A DNA stretch of 64,000 nucleotides, from contig NZ_CANLNH010000004.1 in NCBI RefSeq assembly GCF_947492535.1, forward strand, positions 1-64,000. Direction: 5' to 3'. The stretch's first letter is position 1. Each line of letters begins with the position of its first letter. This document shows, piece by piece, positions 6,028 to 12,963 of the stretch. The position numbers were made by a program, and so were the translations under genes. The notes below the pieces were generated by a model. That model searched no databases. It had not been told where the DNA came from and saw only the letters and a program-made list of their open reading frames with translations. The stretch comes from an uncultured Dokdonia sp. (GTDB lineage Bacteria; Bacteroidota; Bacteroidia; Flavobacteriales; Flavobacteriaceae).

Positions 6028-6387
6028 TTACCTGTTTTTGAAATGCTCTTTAATTTCTATTAGTACACTTGGAAGGAGATCAAATACCATTTTGTTTTCA
6101 AATCGTATGATTGTAAATCCTAATTTTTCTAGCTCTTTTGTCCGTTTAGCATCATATTCTTGTGCCTCTTCATTAAAATGAACTTCTCCGTCTAGTTCAA
6201 TAATTAGTTGTTCAGATGGACAGTAAAAATCAACAATATAATTAAGAATGCTATGTTGCCTTAAAAATCGTTTTCCATCCAGTTGCTTATTTTTAAGATG
6301 CTTCCATAAAAATCGTTCTGCGGGTGTTGCATTATTGCGAAGTGATTTTCGGTAGGTCTCTAAATATTTTCTAGAATGGATAACCAT
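6028..6387 (-). CDS. DUF559 endonuclease-like protein
   Basis: 119 residues, the usual size of stand-alone DUF559 (PF04480) proteins, which share a fold with Vsr-type very short patch repair endonucleases. Conserved pieces seen are NNATPAERFLWKHLK, KRFLRQHSI, YIVDFYC, LIIELDGEVH, DAKRTKELEKLGF and IIRFEN. The Asp of IVDF, Glu and Asp of IELDG and the following His are the likely metal/catalytic residues. It is clearly a paralogue of the domain inserted in leuS at 9467-9881. Its 5' side is bordered by a REP-like hairpin (6430-6482). Biological role in Bacteroidota is not established; association with repeats suggests a mobile or repeat-handling nuclease (inference). Confidence 0.85.
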   Translation of the reverse strand: MVIHSRKYLETYRKSLRNNATPAERFLWKHLKNKQLDGKRFLRQHSILNYIVDFYCPSEQLIIELDGEVHFNEEAQEYDAKRTKELEKLGFTIIRFENKMVFDLLPSVLIEIKEHFKNR

Positions 6388-6429
6388 TGTTTAAATATAC
6401 TGGTTTTTGGGCTAGCTTTCAGCTTCGCC

Positions 6430-6482
6430 AATCCCTCTGTCAAAAACCCTGTTTTTGACATCTCCCTTTTTCAAAAGGGAGA
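6430..6482 (+). repeat. REP-like double hairpin, copy A (ATCCCTCTGTC family)
   Basis: ATCCCTC, then a TGTCAAAAA / TTTTTGACA hairpin, then a CTCCCTTTT / AAAAGGGAG hairpin. Same layout as 6619-6664 (opposite strand) and 46486-46524. It abuts the 5' end of the DUF559 gene. Confidence 0.7.
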
Positions 6483-6926: not shown

Positions 6927-7460
6927 TTATGTAGTTAGTGTCTTTATTTTCTTTTCGATCTCAGCAACTTTTTTACTCCAAAATACTAATGCTTCTGTTG
7001 CATTGTATTGGGGTTTGTTTTTAGTTCCCTTTTTTAATTCCTTAGGAATACGACCAAGAAAACCCCAATTTTCATGTTGATCTTTTGCTATTTGGCTTTG
7101 CGTCTCAGGATCTTCTTTTCGTCGTGCCCAAAAATACTGATGTTCTAAATAGGTCTTTTTGACGCTTTCAAAATGACCCTTTAATTGTTCTGTGTCATTA
7201 GGAATGTATCCTGGTCCTGAACATCCACACGAATGAAACGTGATACCTACACGATACAATGTTTTGATATGATTCCACGCTTTGATATCTTTTTTCTTAG
7301 GAGATTCAAAATCTAACCCCATATCTGCCATCACGTTACTACACTCTGGACAGGTAGCAGGTTTTTCTTGAATCCCTTTAGGATATCCGTCTAGAATATC
7401 GTGCAACAACCGTCTTTTGAATGTCTTTCGACATTCAAAGCAGGCATAGTGCGGTTTGTA
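6927..7460 (-). CDS. Conserved zinc-ribbon protein of unknown function
   Basis: About 177 residues from ATG at 7460 (MTSYKPHYACFECRKTFK); the frame is open a few codons further to 7484. The N-terminal part holds two Cys pairs (ACFEC and CPEC) that would form a zinc ribbon, and SCGCSGPGYIP follows in the middle. The C-terminal quarter is a charged helix. Similar uncharacterised proteins are widespread in Bacteroidota (from memory). Function unknown. Confidence 0.75.
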   Translation of the reverse strand, partial: YKPHYACFECRKTFKRRLLHDILDGYPKGIQEKPATCPECSNVMADMGLDFESPKKKDIKAWNHIKTLYRVGITFHSCGCSGPGYIPNDTEQLKGHFESVKKTYLEHQYFWARRKEDPETQSQIAKDQHENWGFLGRIPKELKKGTKNKPQYNATEALVFWSKKVAEIEKKIKTLTT

Positions 7461-7506
7461 GGATGTCATTGCATATCTGCACATTTCCTCTTTATTTTAA
7501 ATTAAA

Positions 7507-7529
7507 AACCCTCTCCGAAGAGAGGGTTT
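7507..7529 (-). terminator. Terminator of leuS
   Basis: AAACCCTCTC-CGAA-GAGAGGGTTT stem followed on the minus strand by TTTAAT, 12 bp beyond the leuS stop. Confidence 0.75.
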
Positions 7530-7540
7530 GTGTGTGGTTA

Positions 7541-10500
7541 TTATCCCACTATATTGACAATCTTCCCAGGCACGATAATCACCTTTTTCGGGGTGCGGTC
7601 TCCTAGATATTGTTTTGTTTTTTCATGAGCCATCACGACTTCCTCTATCTGATCTTTACTATAGTCTAATGGCAATTCTAATGTAAACTTCATTTTCCCA
7701 TTAAAAGAGATCGGATAGTTCTTAGAACTCTCCACCAAATGCTTCTCTTCAAAAATTGGAAAGGCTGCTTCAGAGATACTTTCCGTATGTCCGAGCTTAC
7801 TCCATAACTCCTCAGCAATATGCGGTGCATATGGCGCAATTAAAATCAAAAGTGGCTCTAAGATTGCTCTAGATGTACATTTTTGTGCCGCCAACTCATT
7901 CCCAGCAATCATAAATGTAGATACGGAGGTGTTAAAACTAAAGTTCTCAATATCTTCCTCTACTTTCTTGATGGTTTTATGAAGTGTCTTTAAGTTATCT
8001 TTTGTAGGCTCAGAATCTGTCACGTTAAATGCTTCTTCTGCCCCCGAATGATACAATCTCCATAGTTTCTTTAAGAAATTATGTACTCCCGAAATACCAG
8101 CGGTATTCCAAGGTTTTGCTTGCTCCAACGGACCTAAGAACATCTCATACATACGTAAGGTGTCTGCCCCATATTGATTACAGATGTCATCTGGGTTGAC
8201 AACATTATACCAACGTTTAGACATTTTTTCTACCTCGCGTCCAACAACAAATTTACCCTCATCTAAAATAAATTCTGCATCCTTAAATTGAGGTTGCCAA
8301 TTCTTTAAAGCTTCAACATCAATTTCATCAGAGGCGTTTACCATATTTACATCAATATGGATGCCTTCTGTTTTATGTTGATCTTTTAAACCAGCAGAAA
8401 CATAAGTGTTTGTACCACTTATTCTGTAAGCAATAGCGCTCGTTCCCAAAATCATCCCTTGATTGATCATTTTTTGGAAGGGCTCATCGAACTCTATATA
8501 TCCACGATCAAATAAGAATTTTACCCAGAAACGTGAGTATAATAAGTGACCTGTCCCGTGCTCGGAACCTCCAATGTATAAATCTACATTGCTCCAATAG
8601 TCAAGTGCTTCTTTAGGAACAGACCCATCCTCAGTAGTGTTATCCATATACTTTATGAAGTACCAACTACTTCCTGCCCATCCAGGCATGGTATTTAACT
8701 CCAAAGGGAATACCGTTTTCCTATCTACCAAGTCATTAGAAACCACTTCATTTTTAGTCGTATCCCATGCCCAAACATCGGCGCGACCTAATGGTGGCGC
8801 TCCATCTTCGGTAGGTAAGTATTTTTCAATTTCAGGAAGCTCAACAGGCAAATGCTCTAAGGCAATCATCTGTGGCATGCCGTCTACATAATACACTGGA
8901 AATGGCTCTCCCCAATAACGCTGACGGCTAAATACCGCATTACGTAAACGATAGTTGGTTTTACCCGTTCCTGCGCCTATTTTTTCTAGCTCGTAAATCG
9001 CTAGTTTTACGGCTTTCTTATATTTTAATCCGTTTAAGAAATCACTGTTTGCGATTACCGTTGCTGCTTTATCTGCAAAGGCTTCTTCCGAAATATCAAC
9101 GCCTTCAAATACATTAGGAATGGGGATATCAAATTTCTTAGCAAAATCATAATCACGCTGATCTCCACACGGTACAGCCATCACGGCACCAGTTCCATAA
9201 CCTGCTAATACATAATCTCCAATCCATACAGGAACGGGCTCTTTGGTAAACGGATGCTCTGCATACGCTCCAGTAAATACTCCAGAAATGGTTTTTACAT
9301 CGGCCATACGCTCACGCTCAGAACGTTTTGAAGTCGCTTCAATATACGCATCAACGGCTTCTTTCTGCTCTGGCGTTGTGATTTTTGACACCAATTCATG
9401 TTCTGGTGCCAATGTCATAAATGAAACCCCAAAAATAGTATCGGGACGTGTCGTAAACACACTAATCCCCCTAGCCCCCGAAGGGGGAATCTCACGATTG
9501 TCTAATGTCTGTTTTATTTTTGATAAAACAGATTCGAGGTTTCCTAGTACTTCTTCATTTCTAAAACGGATAACTTTATACCCTAATTCTTCTAAAACTT
9601 CTGTACGAGCTTGGTCTTCCTCTTTTTGGTGATCGTGGATATCTCCATCTACTTCGATGACTAATTTTTTAGAAAGGCATACAAAATCAACAATAAAATT
9701 ATCGATAAGATGCTGTCTTCTAAATTTATATTCTAAGTTTTTTCCTTTTAAAGATTCCCATAAAGCAGCTTCAGCTGGCGTAGGGTTTTCACGCATTTCT
9801 TTTGCTCTTTCAATCAAAATATGTGAATTATTCCCACCCGTCATATAGCCAGGCGTAGTCCCCCTTTGGGGGATTAGGGGGAACGTGACCATCGCGCCCA
9901 CTGATTTTCCAATCCAGTTACGTTGGGTTTCTTTGATAGATTCGCTCCAATCAATAGTCTCTAGTCCCTGTAATAAACGCTCTGCATAGGCAGAAATACG
10001 CATCGACCATTGGGTCATTTTTTTACGTACTACGGGATGACTCCCACGTTCTGAAACGCCGTTTACAATCTCATCATTTGCTAGTACAGTTCCTAACGCC
10101 GGACACCAATTTACTTCGGTTTCGGCTAGGTAGGTTAATCTGTATTTTAAAAGAATCGCCTGTTGTTCTTTGTCAGAATAGGCATTCCATTCATCAGCTG
10201 TAAAGATGGTGATATCATCATCGCATACGGCATTTACGGTTGCATTCCCCGCTTTCGCGAAAGCGGACACCAACGTATCAATGCCTTCTGCTTTATTATT
10301 ATCATTATTATACCAAGCGTTATATAACTCGGTAAAAATCCATTGTGTCCATTTGTAATACGCAGGATCTGAAGTGCGCACCTCACGACTCCAATCAAAA
10401 GAGAATCCTATTTTATCCAACTGATTGCGGTATCCAGCAATGACATTGCCTTGATTATCGACACCCCCTTCTATGTTTACTTTGGTTGTCGTTGCAGGGT

Positions 10501-10783
10501 GTTGTCCCGTCTGAATCGCATATTGCTCAGCTGGCAATCCAAACGAATCGTAGCCTTGCGGGTGTAATACGTTAAACCCTTTCAAACGCTTGTATCTCGC
10601 GTAGACATCACTGGCAATATATCCTAATGGATGACCTACATGCAGTCCTGCTCCCGAAGGATATGGGAACATGTCGAGTACATAATATTTAGGCTTATCG
10701 CTCGTATTACTGGCGTGAAATGTGCCGTTGTCTGCCCAATATTTTTGCCATTTGGCTTCTATTTCGTTGAAATGGTATTTCAT
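7541..10783 (-). CDS. leuS: Leucine--tRNA ligase with an in-frame DUF559 insertion
   Basis: 1080 residues, about 140 longer than I expect for flavobacterial LeuRS (about 940). Class I motifs are intact: FPYPSGAGLHVGHPLGY (HIGH-type) near residue 40 and EKMSKRW (KMSKS-type) in the C-terminal half. The editing-domain motif FTTRPDTIFG is present. Between GAMVTF (residue 300) and ISVFTTRPDT (residue 440) lies a complete DUF559 nuclease domain bounded by inverted repeats. Reading frame is kept through the whole insert and no second leuS is in the window, so the product is probably functional; the insert would protrude from a hairpin loop at the edge of the CP1 editing domain (inference). The palindrome at 10250-10266 is read as SAFAKAG. 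Monocistronic, with terminator at 7507-7529. Confidence 0.95.
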   Translation of the reverse strand: MKYHFNEIEAKWQKYWADNGTFHASNTSDKPKYYVLDMFPYPSGAGLHVGHPLGYIASDVYARYKRLKGFNVLHPQGYDSFGLPAEQYAIQTGQHPATTTKVNIEGGVDNQGNVIAGYRNQLDKIGFSFDWSREVRTSDPAYYKWTQWIFTELYNAWYNNDNNKAEGIDTLVSAFAKAGNATVNAVCDDDITIFTADEWNAYSDKEQQAILLKYRLTYLAETEVNWCPALGTVLANDEIVNGVSERGSHPVVRKKMTQWSMRISAYAERLLQGLETIDWSESIKETQRNWIGKSVGAMVTFPLIPQRGTTPGYMTGGNNSHILIERAKEMRENPTPAEAALWESLKGKNLEYKFRRQHLIDNFIVDFVCLSKKLVIEVDGDIHDHQKEEDQARTEVLEELGYKVIRFRNEEVLGNLESVLSKIKQTLDNREIPPSGARGISVFTTRPDTIFGVSFMTLAPEHELVSKITTPEQKEAVDAYIEATSKRSERERMADVKTISGVFTGAYAEHPFTKEPVPVWIGDYVLAGYGTGAVMAVPCGDQRDYDFAKKFDIPIPNVFEGVDISEEAFADKAATVIANSDFLNGLKYKKAVKLAIYELEKIGAGTGKTNYRLRNAVFSRQRYWGEPFPVYYVDGMPQMIALEHLPVELPEIEKYLPTEDGAPPLGRADVWAWDTTKNEVVSNDLVDRKTVFPLELNTMPGWAGSSWYFIKYMDNTTEDGSVPKEALDYWSNVDLYIGGSEHGTGHLLYSRFWVKFLFDRGYIEFDEPFQKMINQGMILGTSAIAYRISGTNTYVSAGLKDQHKTEGIHIDVNMVNASDEIDVEALKNWQPQFKDAEFILDEGKFVVGREVEKMSKRWYNVVNPDDICNQYGADTLRMYEMFLGPLEQAKPWNTAGISGVHNFLKKLWRLYHSGAEEAFNVTDSEPTKDNLKTLHKTIKKVEEDIENFSFNTSVSTFMIAGNELAAQKCTSRAILEPLLILIAPYAPHIAEELWSKLGHTESISEAAFPIFEEKHLVESSKNYPISFNGKMKFTLELPLDYSKDQIEEVVMAHEKTKQYLGDRTPKKVIIVPGKIVNIVG
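9467..9487. repeat. Inverted terminal repeat of the leuS insert (3' side of the gene)
   Basis: CCCCCTAG followed by the hairpin CCCCCGAAGGGGG. It is the inverted partner of 9860-9881 and a relative of 12023-12043. Confidence 0.8.
9860..9881. repeat. Inverted terminal repeat of the leuS insert (5' side of the gene)
   Basis: CCCCCTTTGGGGG followed by ATTAGGGGG on the plus strand. It differs from the panE-tail copy at 12023-12043 by a single base (ATTAG against TTAG). Confidence 0.8.
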
Positions 10784-11062
10784 CTACTTAAAATTTTTAA
10801 TTTCATTAAAAATGAAACAAATAAAAAATTTCTGCTTAGATCAACCGCTACGCTTTCGCATAAAAAATTTAATTGTTTTAGTTGATAAGCAAAAAATTAA
10901 TTTTGTTTATGCTCATTTCATAATGCGTTATTTTTTTCGCTGTAGCGAAAATGACTCAGGACTAAAAGGAATCAAGAATCACGACTTTTATATATAATTT
11001 ACAGCGCTACGCTGTTTTAAGCCGGCAAATTTACGATTTTATATCAAGTTGTAAGGGTTGCC
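10784..11062 (-). other. Hairpin-rich leader region of leuS
   Basis: Non-coding. It contains TTTCATT-AAA-AATGAAA (10801-10817), an imperfect 18-bp inverted repeat (AATTTCTGCTTAGATCAAC near 10828 with GTTGATAAGC near 10881), and TTTTCGC / GCGAAAA (10935-10952). A TAAATTTG element at 11026-11033 on the minus strand could be the -7 box, which would give a leader of about 235 nt. No T-box or other known riboswitch is recognised. Confidence 0.35.
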
Positions 11063-11578
11063 TCAGGCATTAAAATTGATATCAATTTTATAATCTAATG
11101 GTTTGTCATTTTTTATTTTTTCAAACCATTTGTTTTTTTGAAGATCAAGTAGATTTTCATTCTTGCTTTGACCGAATGCCTTATCTTCTTCAGAAAACTC
11201 TTCGGGTTTGTAAAACATATAAAGTCTAAGTTCGACTACTTCATGTTCAAAATGCCAATAGAAATGACGCTCAAACGCCAATCGGAGGTATATACTCATA
11301 TTTTGACCTTTTATACTATGATATGTATTTCCAATATGCGTAAATACATCACCATCAGGATAATAAAATTCTGAATCTGTAGAAAAATGAGGGTATTCTG
11401 TTTTAAAAGAAAGTAATTCATCTAATGAAACCTCTTGATAATGCTTATAAAAAGCTTTTAACGCTTTTATAGCACTAATGTTTTCTGTATTTCCATTTTC
11501 AAAAAGATGGTTGTTTATTGATTGAATCAACTCTTCTTCTACTTTATCATATCTGTCATAATGATTTTTGTTTCCCAT
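11063..11578 (-). CDS. Hypothetical protein, 171 residues
   Basis: Soluble, acidic, rich in Phe, Tyr and Glu, without signal peptide or membrane segment. It begins MGNKNHYDRYDKVEEELIQ. No family is recognised. It stands alone; two tandem operator-like dyads lie 98-130 bp upstream of its start (11676-11708), so it may be regulated. Lower GC than its neighbours suggests accessory origin (inference). Confidence 0.6.
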   Translation of the reverse strand: MGNKNHYDRYDKVEEELIQSINNHLFENGNTENISAIKALKAFYKHYQEVSLDELLSFKTEYPHFSTDSEFYYPDGDVFTHIGNTYHSIKGQNMSIYLRLAFERHFYWHFEHEVVELRLYMFYKPEEFSEEDKAFGQSKNENLLDLQKNKWFEKIKNDKPLDYKIDINFNA

Positions 11579-11671
11579 GATTTTGATGTGATGAATGTTT
11601 ATAGGTAATTTTAAAATTCAATTTTTTAGTCACTAAATTTACAATGATTATAGTAATTAAAGGATTTCTTA

Positions 11672-11712
11672 AAAATAGAGTAACACTCTAAATTAGAGTA
11701 GTACTCTATTTT
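11672..11712. promoter_or_regulatory. Two tandem TAGAGT-N3-ACTCTA dyads (possible operator)
   Basis: Two 15-bp dyads, TAGAGTAACACTCTA (11676-11690) and TAGAGTAGTACTCTA (11694-11708), are separated by 3 bp. Together with flanking AAAA/TTTT they make one 41-bp near-perfect palindrome. Spacing of 18 bp centre to centre suits a cooperative repressor or a cruciform. The nearest gene downstream on the minus strand is 11063-11578. Confidence 0.45.
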
Positions 11713-11725
11713 GTGAATATAATAT

Positions 11726-11775
11726 GTGACTGAGTGATTCTGAGGCACGAGGAATTGTATCGAAGTTACCGGCTT
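11726..11775. repeat. GTGACTGAGTGATT repeat, copy B
   Basis: GTGACTGAGTGATT...GTATCGAAGTTACC. It is nearly identical to copy C, with about three mismatches over 50 bp. Confidence 0.7.
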
Positions 11776-11886
11776 AGAGTGATGGCTCCTTTCCGTCTAT
11801 ATTTCGTACCTCAATATAGCCACCTTCCCTCACTGAGGGAAGGAGCTTTTGTTTGCCAATTTTTTGTAGCATTATTTTATGTCTAG

Positions 11887-11937
11887 GTGACTGAGTGATT
11901 CTGAGGAACGAGGAATTGTATCGAAATTACCGACTTA
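11887..11937. repeat. GTGACTGAGTGATT repeat, copy C
   Basis: Direct repeat of copy B, 161 bp away. Copy A at 2953 shares both ends but has a hairpin as core. Confidence 0.7.
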
Positions 11938-12006
11938 GTAATATAGAATGACAGCTCCCTTCTCTTAGCGAAAGAAGGAATTGGCTATTCGTTATATCGT
12001 AATAGA

Positions 12007-12963
12007 TTAAACTGCAATAGTTCCCCCTTTGGGGGTTAGGGGGCTTCGTGCTATGTTCTCCTGAGGTAATAATAATTGATAAATCATCTCATTTACAGGT
12101 GTAGGGATTCCTACTCTTTTCCCTTCTTTTACGATAAAACCATTAAAGTTTTCGAGTTCGCTAGGTTTGCCTTCCATGAGATCGCGTTGTGTAGAGGCTG
12201 TGGTTTCAGGGGCTTGTCGTGCAATGGCGGCAAAGGCTTTGTCTATTGTGTTTTCTGGTAATGCAATGCCTTTGGCATGTGCTACCGCATAGACTTCTTG
12301 TGCTGTTTTGAGCATCAAATCTTTGATGTATGGAGTGTCTCGTATGATTCCGATAGGTACTCTAGTTAATCCACCGATGGCACTTACGGTAGTGATGAAT
12401 AAGAACTTTTGCCAAATAGCAACTTGAATATTTTCTGGAATTTTTGCGTTAAGACCTGCTTCTTTAAACACGGCTAAAATAGCTTCGATTCTTGGACTGC
12501 GGGTATTGTCTTGTTCACCAAAAAGAAAGGAAGGTGGAATATCAGGATTTGAAATCACCCCAGGGCTTTTAATAAAACTAATCATGCGACAGAGTCCTGA
12601 GAGTACTTGGTTTTTTGGAAGGGCTTTATTTAACTTTTCTGTATTGTCTGCTCCGTTTTGTAAAGGCAGAAATAATGTGTTATCATTTGTATATTGCAAT
12701 ATATCTTTTGATGCTTGTTCTAATTGCCATGATTTTATAGCAAAAATGACAAGATCAGGCGTGTCTATTTTAGAAAGATCATCTGTGGCTAGGTGCGGAT
12801 GCGCTGTAAAATTACCTGTGATGCTTTGTACTTGCAATCCATGCTCTTGAATGGCCTTAAGATGTGCATCTCTTGCGATAAGTGTAATTTGATGTTGGGT
12901 TAAGGCTAGTTTTCCGCCTATAAAACCACCAACACCTCCAGTACCGTAGATTAGAATTTTCAT
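12007..12963 (-). CDS. panE: 2-dehydropantoate 2-reductase with repeat-encoded tail
   Basis: 318 residues. The N-terminal Rossmann motif is ILIYGTGGVGGFIGG. The catalytic C-terminal domain includes IWQKFLFITTVSAIGGLTR (with the usual Lys) and the ELENFNGFIVKEGKRVGIPTP block containing the substrate-binding Glu/Asn region. It reduces ketopantoate to pantoate with NADPH in coenzyme A synthesis; some ApbA-family members act on other 2-oxoacids. The last residues, ARSPLTPKGGTIAV, are encoded by the G/C repeat at 12023-12043 and look like an accidental extension beyond the normal end. It stands alone on the minus strand. Confidence 0.9.
   Translation of the reverse strand: MKILIYGTGGVGGFIGGKLALTQHQITLIARDAHLKAIQEHGLQVQSITGNFTAHPHLATDDLSKIDTPDLVIFAIKSWQLEQASKDILQYTNDNTLFLPLQNGADNTEKLNKALPKNQVLSGLCRMISFIKSPGVISNPDIPPSFLFGEQDNTRSPRIEAILAVFKEAGLNAKIPENIQVAIWQKFLFITTVSAIGGLTRVPIGIIRDTPYIKDLMLKTAQEVYAVAHAKGIALPENTIDKAFAAIARQAPETTASTQRDLMEGKPSELENFNGFIVKEGKRVGIPTPVNEMIYQLLLPQENIARSPLTPKGGTIAV
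12023..12043. repeat. Solo copy of the DUF559-element end inside panE
   Basis: CCCCCTTTGGGGG then TTAGGGGG. It is almost identical to the repeat at 9860-9881 but without a nuclease gene. It is translated as SPLTPKGG at the PanE C-terminus. Confidence 0.75.

Follow-up and report, generated by a model that had tools for sequence, protein, structure and literature searches.

How can a nuclease domain come to lie inside an essential enzyme such as leucyl-tRNA synthetase (LeuRS), and how can it persist there? The usual view is that a selfish nuclease can be tolerated in an essential gene only with splicing; in inteins, a nuclease is translated inside an essential host protein beside conserved motifs. 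The question is raised here by the leuS gene of an uncultured Dokdonia species, located in a stretch of 64,000 nucleotides that we refer to as the window. The original prediction, made from the letters of the window, described a DUF559 unit with inverted hairpin ends in the leuS reading frame, both ends being translated, and read it as a mobile nuclease that persists in the enzyme without splicing. The description of the locus was confirmed: leuS is one frame of 1080 codons, its element of about 415 bp has ends that read PLIPQRG and PPSGARG, and Pfam places DUF559 at residues 325-427 (E 9.6e-36; 122.4 bits against a gathering cut-off of 20.6), within the synthetase, editing and anticodon-binding domains. 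The features of the locus are collected in Table 1.

Table 1. Features of the window around the filled leuS gene.
Feature	Position in window	Strand	Basis or sequence
leuS, leucyl-tRNA synthetase with internal DUF559 domain	7541..10783	(-)	single open frame, 1080 codons/1080 aa
Inserted element, end to end	9467..9884	(-)	identity with the G017 copy drops within a few bases of the ends
DUF559 (PF04480) nuclease domain, D..ExDG..H residues present	9503..9811	(-)	Pfam, pattern and profile
Palindromic end, 5' side of the coding strand, translated PLIPQRG	9858..9884	(-)	reverse complement is TTCCCCCTAATCCCCCAAAGGGGGAC
Palindromic end, 3' side of the coding strand, translated PPSGARG	9467..9489	(-)	CCCCCTAGCCCCCGAAGGGGGAA
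Solo copy of this type of palindromic end, read as SPLTPKGGT at the C-terminus of a 318-aa frame	12023..12043	(-)	core search
Free-standing DUF559 gene, own start codon, in the free branch of the domain tree	6028..6387	(-)	frame list, Pfam and tree

When the protein is aligned to the Thermus thermophilus LeuRS structure 1h3n, homology ends at window residue 303 (chain residue 236) and restarts at residue 440 (chain residue 243). The insert occupies the loop where 1h3n has six residues, directly upstream of TTRPDT, which we take to be the LeuRS editing motif. The AlphaFold model of the full-length LeuRS is weak (mean pLDDT 65.9), and the structural reading rests on a 376-residue model (mean pLDDT 81.7, pTM 0.54, domain orientation uncertain), the best Foldseek matches of which are bacterial LeuRS (about 380 gapped columns) and the isolated editing domain 4k47 (TM 0.77 by target). 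In this model the DUF559 domain is predicted to sit between two neighbouring strands, 82-88 and 224-229 of the modelled fragment, consistent with the original placement in a loop of the editing domain region. The accompanying statement that LeuRS keeps its HIGH, KMSKS and editing motifs was correct for TTRPDT; the other two signatures read HVGH and, at residues 853-857, KMSKR(W) rather than KMSKS. Since three related Dokdonia share KMSKRW, two of them carriers of the insert (the window and G017) and one insert-free (G002), we regard the KMSKR form as unrelated to the insert. The stretch ahead of the KMSKS motif (window leuS residues ~790-850; L010-L023) itself differs strongly in sequence and length from one Dokdonia species to another.

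DUF559 is the sole domain that Pfam recognises in the insert; it detected no known transposase and no DNA-binding part beyond the nuclease of ~110 aa. Searching the LeuRS protein against its own genome of 4.86 Mb gave nine matches: one leuS, five DUF559 copies elsewhere and three partial matches (30-36% identity) that are taken to be other synthetases, with no second leuS, intact or otherwise, among them.

The two ends of the element are inverted copies of one palindromic sequence, and both are translated. Their core CCCCCTTTGGGGG, allowing up to 2 mismatches, occurs four times in the window against 0.37 expected, a count reached in 1 of 100 shuffles; two of the four occurrences are the leuS element ends. 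A repeat search of the window at default seed did not report the end pair. The solo end in Table 1 lies in a frame that is presumably ketopantoate-reductase-like. Within the window's genome the whole-end pattern is found at the leuS end only, and a shorter pattern at five places including leuS. Exact inverted repeats of at least 11 bp are present at the ends of 39 of the 129 embedded DUF559 copies compared, against 0.75 expected from dinucleotide shuffles, and the other 90 carry no exact 11-bp repeat; the corresponding counts are 12 of 56 for free DUF559 copies (0.65 expected) and 0 of 12 for HemD fusions.

The original prediction proposed that related LeuRS genes be compared for presence of the insert, and both states were found within the genus. 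Among 18 Dokdonia genomes, 16 have a readable leuS site (G006 and G013 hold leuS fragments only). Five of the 16 carry the insert (the window's own genome G000, G007, G011, G015 and G017), and 11 do not, so the insert is far from being present in all relatives; the loop is plain in eight of these, and in three (G003, G010 and G014) it contains an unrelated short palindrome. On a tree of the Dokdonia leuS flanks, in which the state "short" comprises every copy without DUF559, the distribution of the five carriers requires five changes, each of them imposed by well-supported branches. Outside the insert, the nearest relative of the window is the insert-free G002 (2563/2818 bases), and the carrier G017 is more distant (2432/2823). 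Synonymous differences between the window and G017 are distributed very unevenly: 4/89 in the insert, as opposed to 100.5/189 upstream and 62.8/135 in the next 600 nt (Fisher p ~1e-17), or ~163/324 for the combined flanks. The 60 codons that adjoin each element end already show 22.5/40 and 18.2/41.5 synonymous differences. Because the insert-free G002 is nearer to the window than G017, and yet the inserts of the window and G017 are near-identical, the insert appears to have been gained laterally. The flanks of this pair were not co-converted, which points to a transposition-like step or to repair tracts of very small length, and such an identity break at the ends fits transposition better than classical homing. 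Filled and empty alleles show that the leuS loop is replaced by the insert and not cleanly split; by eye, no target-site duplication is evident at filled versus empty leuS and metH sites.

Trees and paired copies from a wider set of genomes lead in the same direction. Host and insert trees of LeuRS reject each other (AU p 3.5e-6 and 4e-5), as judged from a fast tree search on 33 of 59 rows, those with a high-scoring domain and complete flanks after removal of redundancy. Turnover in the reverse sense is seen in L044/L218, where the host is 93% and the insert 59% identical, and in L050/L211 (92% vs 54%). The metH gene of G231 contains two element copies that are alike end to end and show no evident likeness beyond the ends. 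At the level of sequence, these comparisons show that the element passes between species independently of the leuS sequence around it.

DUF559 is found in leuS in at least 23 of 299 Flavobacteriaceae genomes. For 20 of the 23, a single match covers both flanks; G198 and G040 enter the domain from the upstream flank and read on to TTRPDT, and G129 gives a two-piece match with a broken frame. Among the named carriers in leuS are Cellulophaga baltica, Gillisia mitskevichiae, Gillisia marina, Aequorivita todarodis and Leeuwenhoekiella marinoflava; Tenacibaculum sp. AHE14PA has the apparently catalytically broken form described below. The metH site is filled in 7 and the recG site in 8 of the 299 genomes. 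From a set of 247 genomes of the class Bacteroidia, we read the 17 loci that the search returned in full, together with 51 other listed places in reported frames of more than 300 aa. These yielded more leuS inserts, a second leuS site ahead of MPGWAGSSW, likewise a second site in metH, and additional hosts. NCBIfam models run on ten of the proteins identified RecG, MetH, acetate-CoA ligase (acs), RecJ, IleRS, ValRS, MutS, TsaB and TsaD with an internal domain, and HemD as an N-terminal fusion. Pfam on nine more hosts identified a SpoIIE-type phosphatase, methylmalonyl-CoA mutase, CoA-transferase III, Sua5, two UvrD-type helicases, RecG at another site, HisF with an N-terminal DUF559 and a GATase_5 protein with a C-terminal one. 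Internal DUF559 copies were thus confirmed in fifteen host families, host frequencies being biased by queries that were seeded with leuS, metH and recG. This distribution shows what are evidently lateral, precise, in-frame gains at recurrent sites of many housekeeping genes. The mobility that the original prediction claimed is therefore borne out by filled and empty leuS in one genus, the five tree changes, the near-identical insert in diverged flanks, the incongruent trees and the other host enzymes. The same is true of in-frame persistence in an essential enzyme, as filled leuS genes occur in several species and unrelated enzymes contain such inserts too, and a search for DUF559 with palindromic ends in other genes, which it had suggested, found them in RecG, MetH, Acs, RecJ, MutS and others.

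We consider it probable that the leuS insert is a mobile Vsr/EDxHD-type (DUF559) nuclease element of ~415 bp between inverted palindromic ends, which is open in the host frame and persists unspliced as an internal domain. A cut by the nuclease in the insert-free allele, or in some other target, would be followed by copying of the element into the site, either through repair or through a transposition-like step using the palindromic ends. The DUF559 domain would thus make the cut, the palindromic ends would take part, and splicing would have no role: because the element keeps the frame open and its landing site is a permissive loop, the host enzyme would still work and splicing would be unneeded. 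After fixation, the copy may decay to a harmless or co-opted domain or to a scar, as in a homing cycle. The genomes compared support this reading as a spliceless, protein-embedded mobile nuclease, the reach of which extends far beyond leuS. Also in its favour are, as set out below, the constraint on the insert as a protein, the profile matches to solved structures, the negative Pfam and Rfam results on inteins and introns, and the joined and solo ends. Against it stand the 90 embedded copies with no exact 11-bp repeat, the replaced loop with no evident target-site duplication, the identity break at the ends, the lack of a recognised DNA-binding part, a median insert dN/dS above that of the host, the small genes of the embedded branch that have their own start, and the three broken leuS frames. 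The broader proposal is that these elements constitute an undescribed class of mobile element, in which an unspliced nuclease forms a translated internal domain of essential enzymes, homes to conserved Bacteroidota sites by its own activity, gives rise to solo palindromes as non-autonomous derivatives and ends as a dead domain or scar; to this we give even chances. In the literature covered, mostly outside the subscription journals, we found no account of a LeuRS with an internal DUF559, nor of DUF559 as a mobile element inserted in frame.

The alternative that survives best is that the palindromic ends are moved by unlinked machinery, in the manner of Rickettsia palindromic elements (RPEs) or MITEs, that insertion is undirected, that DUF559 is cargo and that the recurrent sites are simply tolerant loops. 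We regard this as possible, if somewhat doubtful. It would account for the TCGAGCGCAGTCGAGA-type palindrome, unrelated to the element, that is translated in frame in the same leuS loop of G003, G010 and G014 (L023, L018 and L020), for a different palindrome at the metH site of G113, and for the solo ends (SPSAPKGGT type) that are in frame at other leuS positions in G011, G014 and G015. It fits less well with the domain tree, which contains 217 DUF559 domains (rows below 60 bits or more than 97% identical were dropped, and 16 without a host assignment left uncounted) and on which the embedded domains cluster by host site: host-site labels require 35 changes, where 20 is the minimum possible and 200 shuffles gave 79-88, although this clustering could partly reflect loops that tolerate inserts. 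The residues of the nuclease, as defined by a regular expression, are kept in 120 of 131 embedded rows, which suggests that the nuclease matters. Free copies are separated from all other DUF559 domains, HemD included, by 9 changes on the same tree. Some small DUF559 genes with their own start fall in the embedded branch, so embedding is not obligatory. As a separate observation, a dispersed palindrome of the FSPSGGDVRRTEG type is translated in frame in leuS of G010 and G011 (L018 and L012).

It is also conceivable that the insert is an accessory LeuRS domain that benefits the host, for example in tRNA handling or the stress response, and that it owes its spread to the usual recombination between leuS alleles, with no selfish behaviour of its own. 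We consider this unlikely. The constraint on the insert as a protein is in its favour: insert dN/dS is 0.05 for L125/L147, 0.09 for L213/L214 and 0.04 for L042/L043, and of the 28 nearest pairs listed, the 23 with a finite value range from 0.04 to 0.31, with 14 at or below 0.15. Across 496 pairs with dS below 2 the median insert value is 0.31, and the host median is 0.115 (245 pairs). Such low dN/dS indicates that the insert is translated, and on these codon comparisons it is under purifying selection as a protein, weaker than that on the host. Retention of apparently broken copies in Polaribacter, Tenacibaculum and others, with dN/dS of 0.12-0.31 in seven listed pairs, would likewise suit a host function, but could be neutral entrenchment. 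Recombination of alleles would bring flanks with it, yet identity ends at the element ends, and the same domain with palindromic ends is also found in unrelated proteins, among them RecG, MetH, Acs, RecJ and MutS.

The apparently broken copies and the vacated sites deserve description in their own right. The D and ExDG pattern is present in 51 of 61 LeuRS rows and absent in 10; eight of these 10 share one form in which the ExDG stretch is replaced and the frame kept (L247, L251, L258, L260, L265, L062, L078 and L079, including Polaribacter, Tenacibaculum and an uncultured Flavobacterium). L122, another of the 10, fails the catalytic pattern only by a G-to-S change after the D. We infer that the ExDG-less copies are catalytically inactive, and an ExDG-less DUF559 in LeuRS is a candidate domesticated domain. 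At the metH site, 12 of the 14 insert-free genes that were read have no evident remnant; in L287 both element ends are joined and the nuclease is absent, and in L291 another palindrome is flanked by similar ends. These rows show an apparent loss of catalytic residues in some lineages, or of the whole nuclease at a metH site, with the reading frame mostly kept. The apparently broken Polaribacter and Tenacibaculum copies, the metH site with ends only and the solo ends elsewhere in leuS were not foreseen by the original prediction.

Removal of the insert from the mRNA or protein by an undetected intron or intein, or a split of the host protein, appears very improbable. The insert is in an essential gene beside a conserved motif, an intein-like position, and in leuS of G512 (L139) one in-frame stop just past DUF559 leaves pieces of 451 and 700 codons, which may be a real split or a sequencing error. 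Inteins resemble the leuS insert in having a nuclease inside an essential protein near a conserved motif; however, Pfam detected no intein or self-splicing domain in the 1080-aa LeuRS (E 0.001), and Rfam detected no intron family in leuS (window 7000-12500). A lone sub-threshold Rfam match in this interval lies outside leuS and was taken as chance. The insert is presumably too short for a splicing domain plus a nuclease. Furthermore, the insert is open and constrained as a protein, and 58 of 61 leuS rows have a frame that stays open for at least 300 codons past the editing motif or to the end of the DNA read; the three with a broken frame are L139, L056 (G129) and L281 (Maribacter halichondriae), and in the latter two as well the break may be real or a sequencing error. 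An assembly or annotation artefact, for which we saw no evidence, can be practically discounted, as the insert is found in many independent assemblies, including the single-contig G007, G142, G148 and G231, and in named isolates.

If a mobile nuclease embedded in its host protein is the correct reading, the element appears to spread by being tolerable as a protein, and it would offer a directly testable route by which conserved enzymes gain domains, related species providing the empty and filled sites as well as the scarred and apparently dead ones. It would also serve as a warning that, in some Bacteroidota, synthetases, RecG, MutS and MetH contain a foreign domain.

Among solved structures, a profile built from leuS inserts matches 3hrl ("Endonuclease-Like Protein", E 1.2e-25) and the distant relative 3r3p ("Mobile intron protein", E 3.6e-6), the latter of which we take to be the homing endonuclease I-Bth0305I. 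With EDxHD/Vsr-like homing endonucleases of this kind the insert has in common the homology of the catalytic domain, seen in the match to 3r3p, and lateral gain at the same site. In the available portion of their description (PMC3943268), EDxHD homing endonucleases lie within group I introns and have extended DNA-binding regions, whereas neither an intron nor a DNA-binding extension is recognised by Rfam and Pfam in the leuS insert. RPEs and similar Wolbachia elements are closest in way of life, as far as the accessible accounts go: they are palindromic, lie in frame in unrelated housekeeping genes and are kept as peptide, typically in non-structured segments (PMC10969869, PMC2996958). According to the same partial accounts, RPEs are ~150 bp long and encode a conserved peptide (PMC10969869, PMC2996958), in contrast to the Bacteroidota element of ~415 bp, which encodes a whole nuclease domain and is found at the same sites across genera. 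Caulobacter VsrA, a Vsr-like DUF559 protein that is predicted to be a mismatch-repair endonuclease (PMC12907096), has the domain family in common with the leuS insert, as does 3hrl; it is a stand-alone protein, and the available part of its description mentions neither embedding nor mobility (PMC12907096). Classical insertion sequences share inverted terminal repeats with those 39 of 129 embedded copies, but a known transposase and an evident target-site duplication are absent here.

A vehicle was found neither in a scan of viral contigs, which gave one relative at 47%, nor among plasmid records, where all 39 with a match were below 60% identity. HemD fusions at first looked like the same kind of embedding, but they group with free-standing genes on the domain tree (12 genomes read). 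In the hemD gene of the window's genome (L002, G000:C2:412490), DUF559 is fused N-terminally, and two palindromes, LPLLEERAGVRC and LPSPQGEGLGVRF, are in frame. Finally, a palindromic repeat of the GATGTC...GACAGAGGG type lies at positions 6390-6480 of the window, preceding the free-standing DUF559 gene listed in Table 1.
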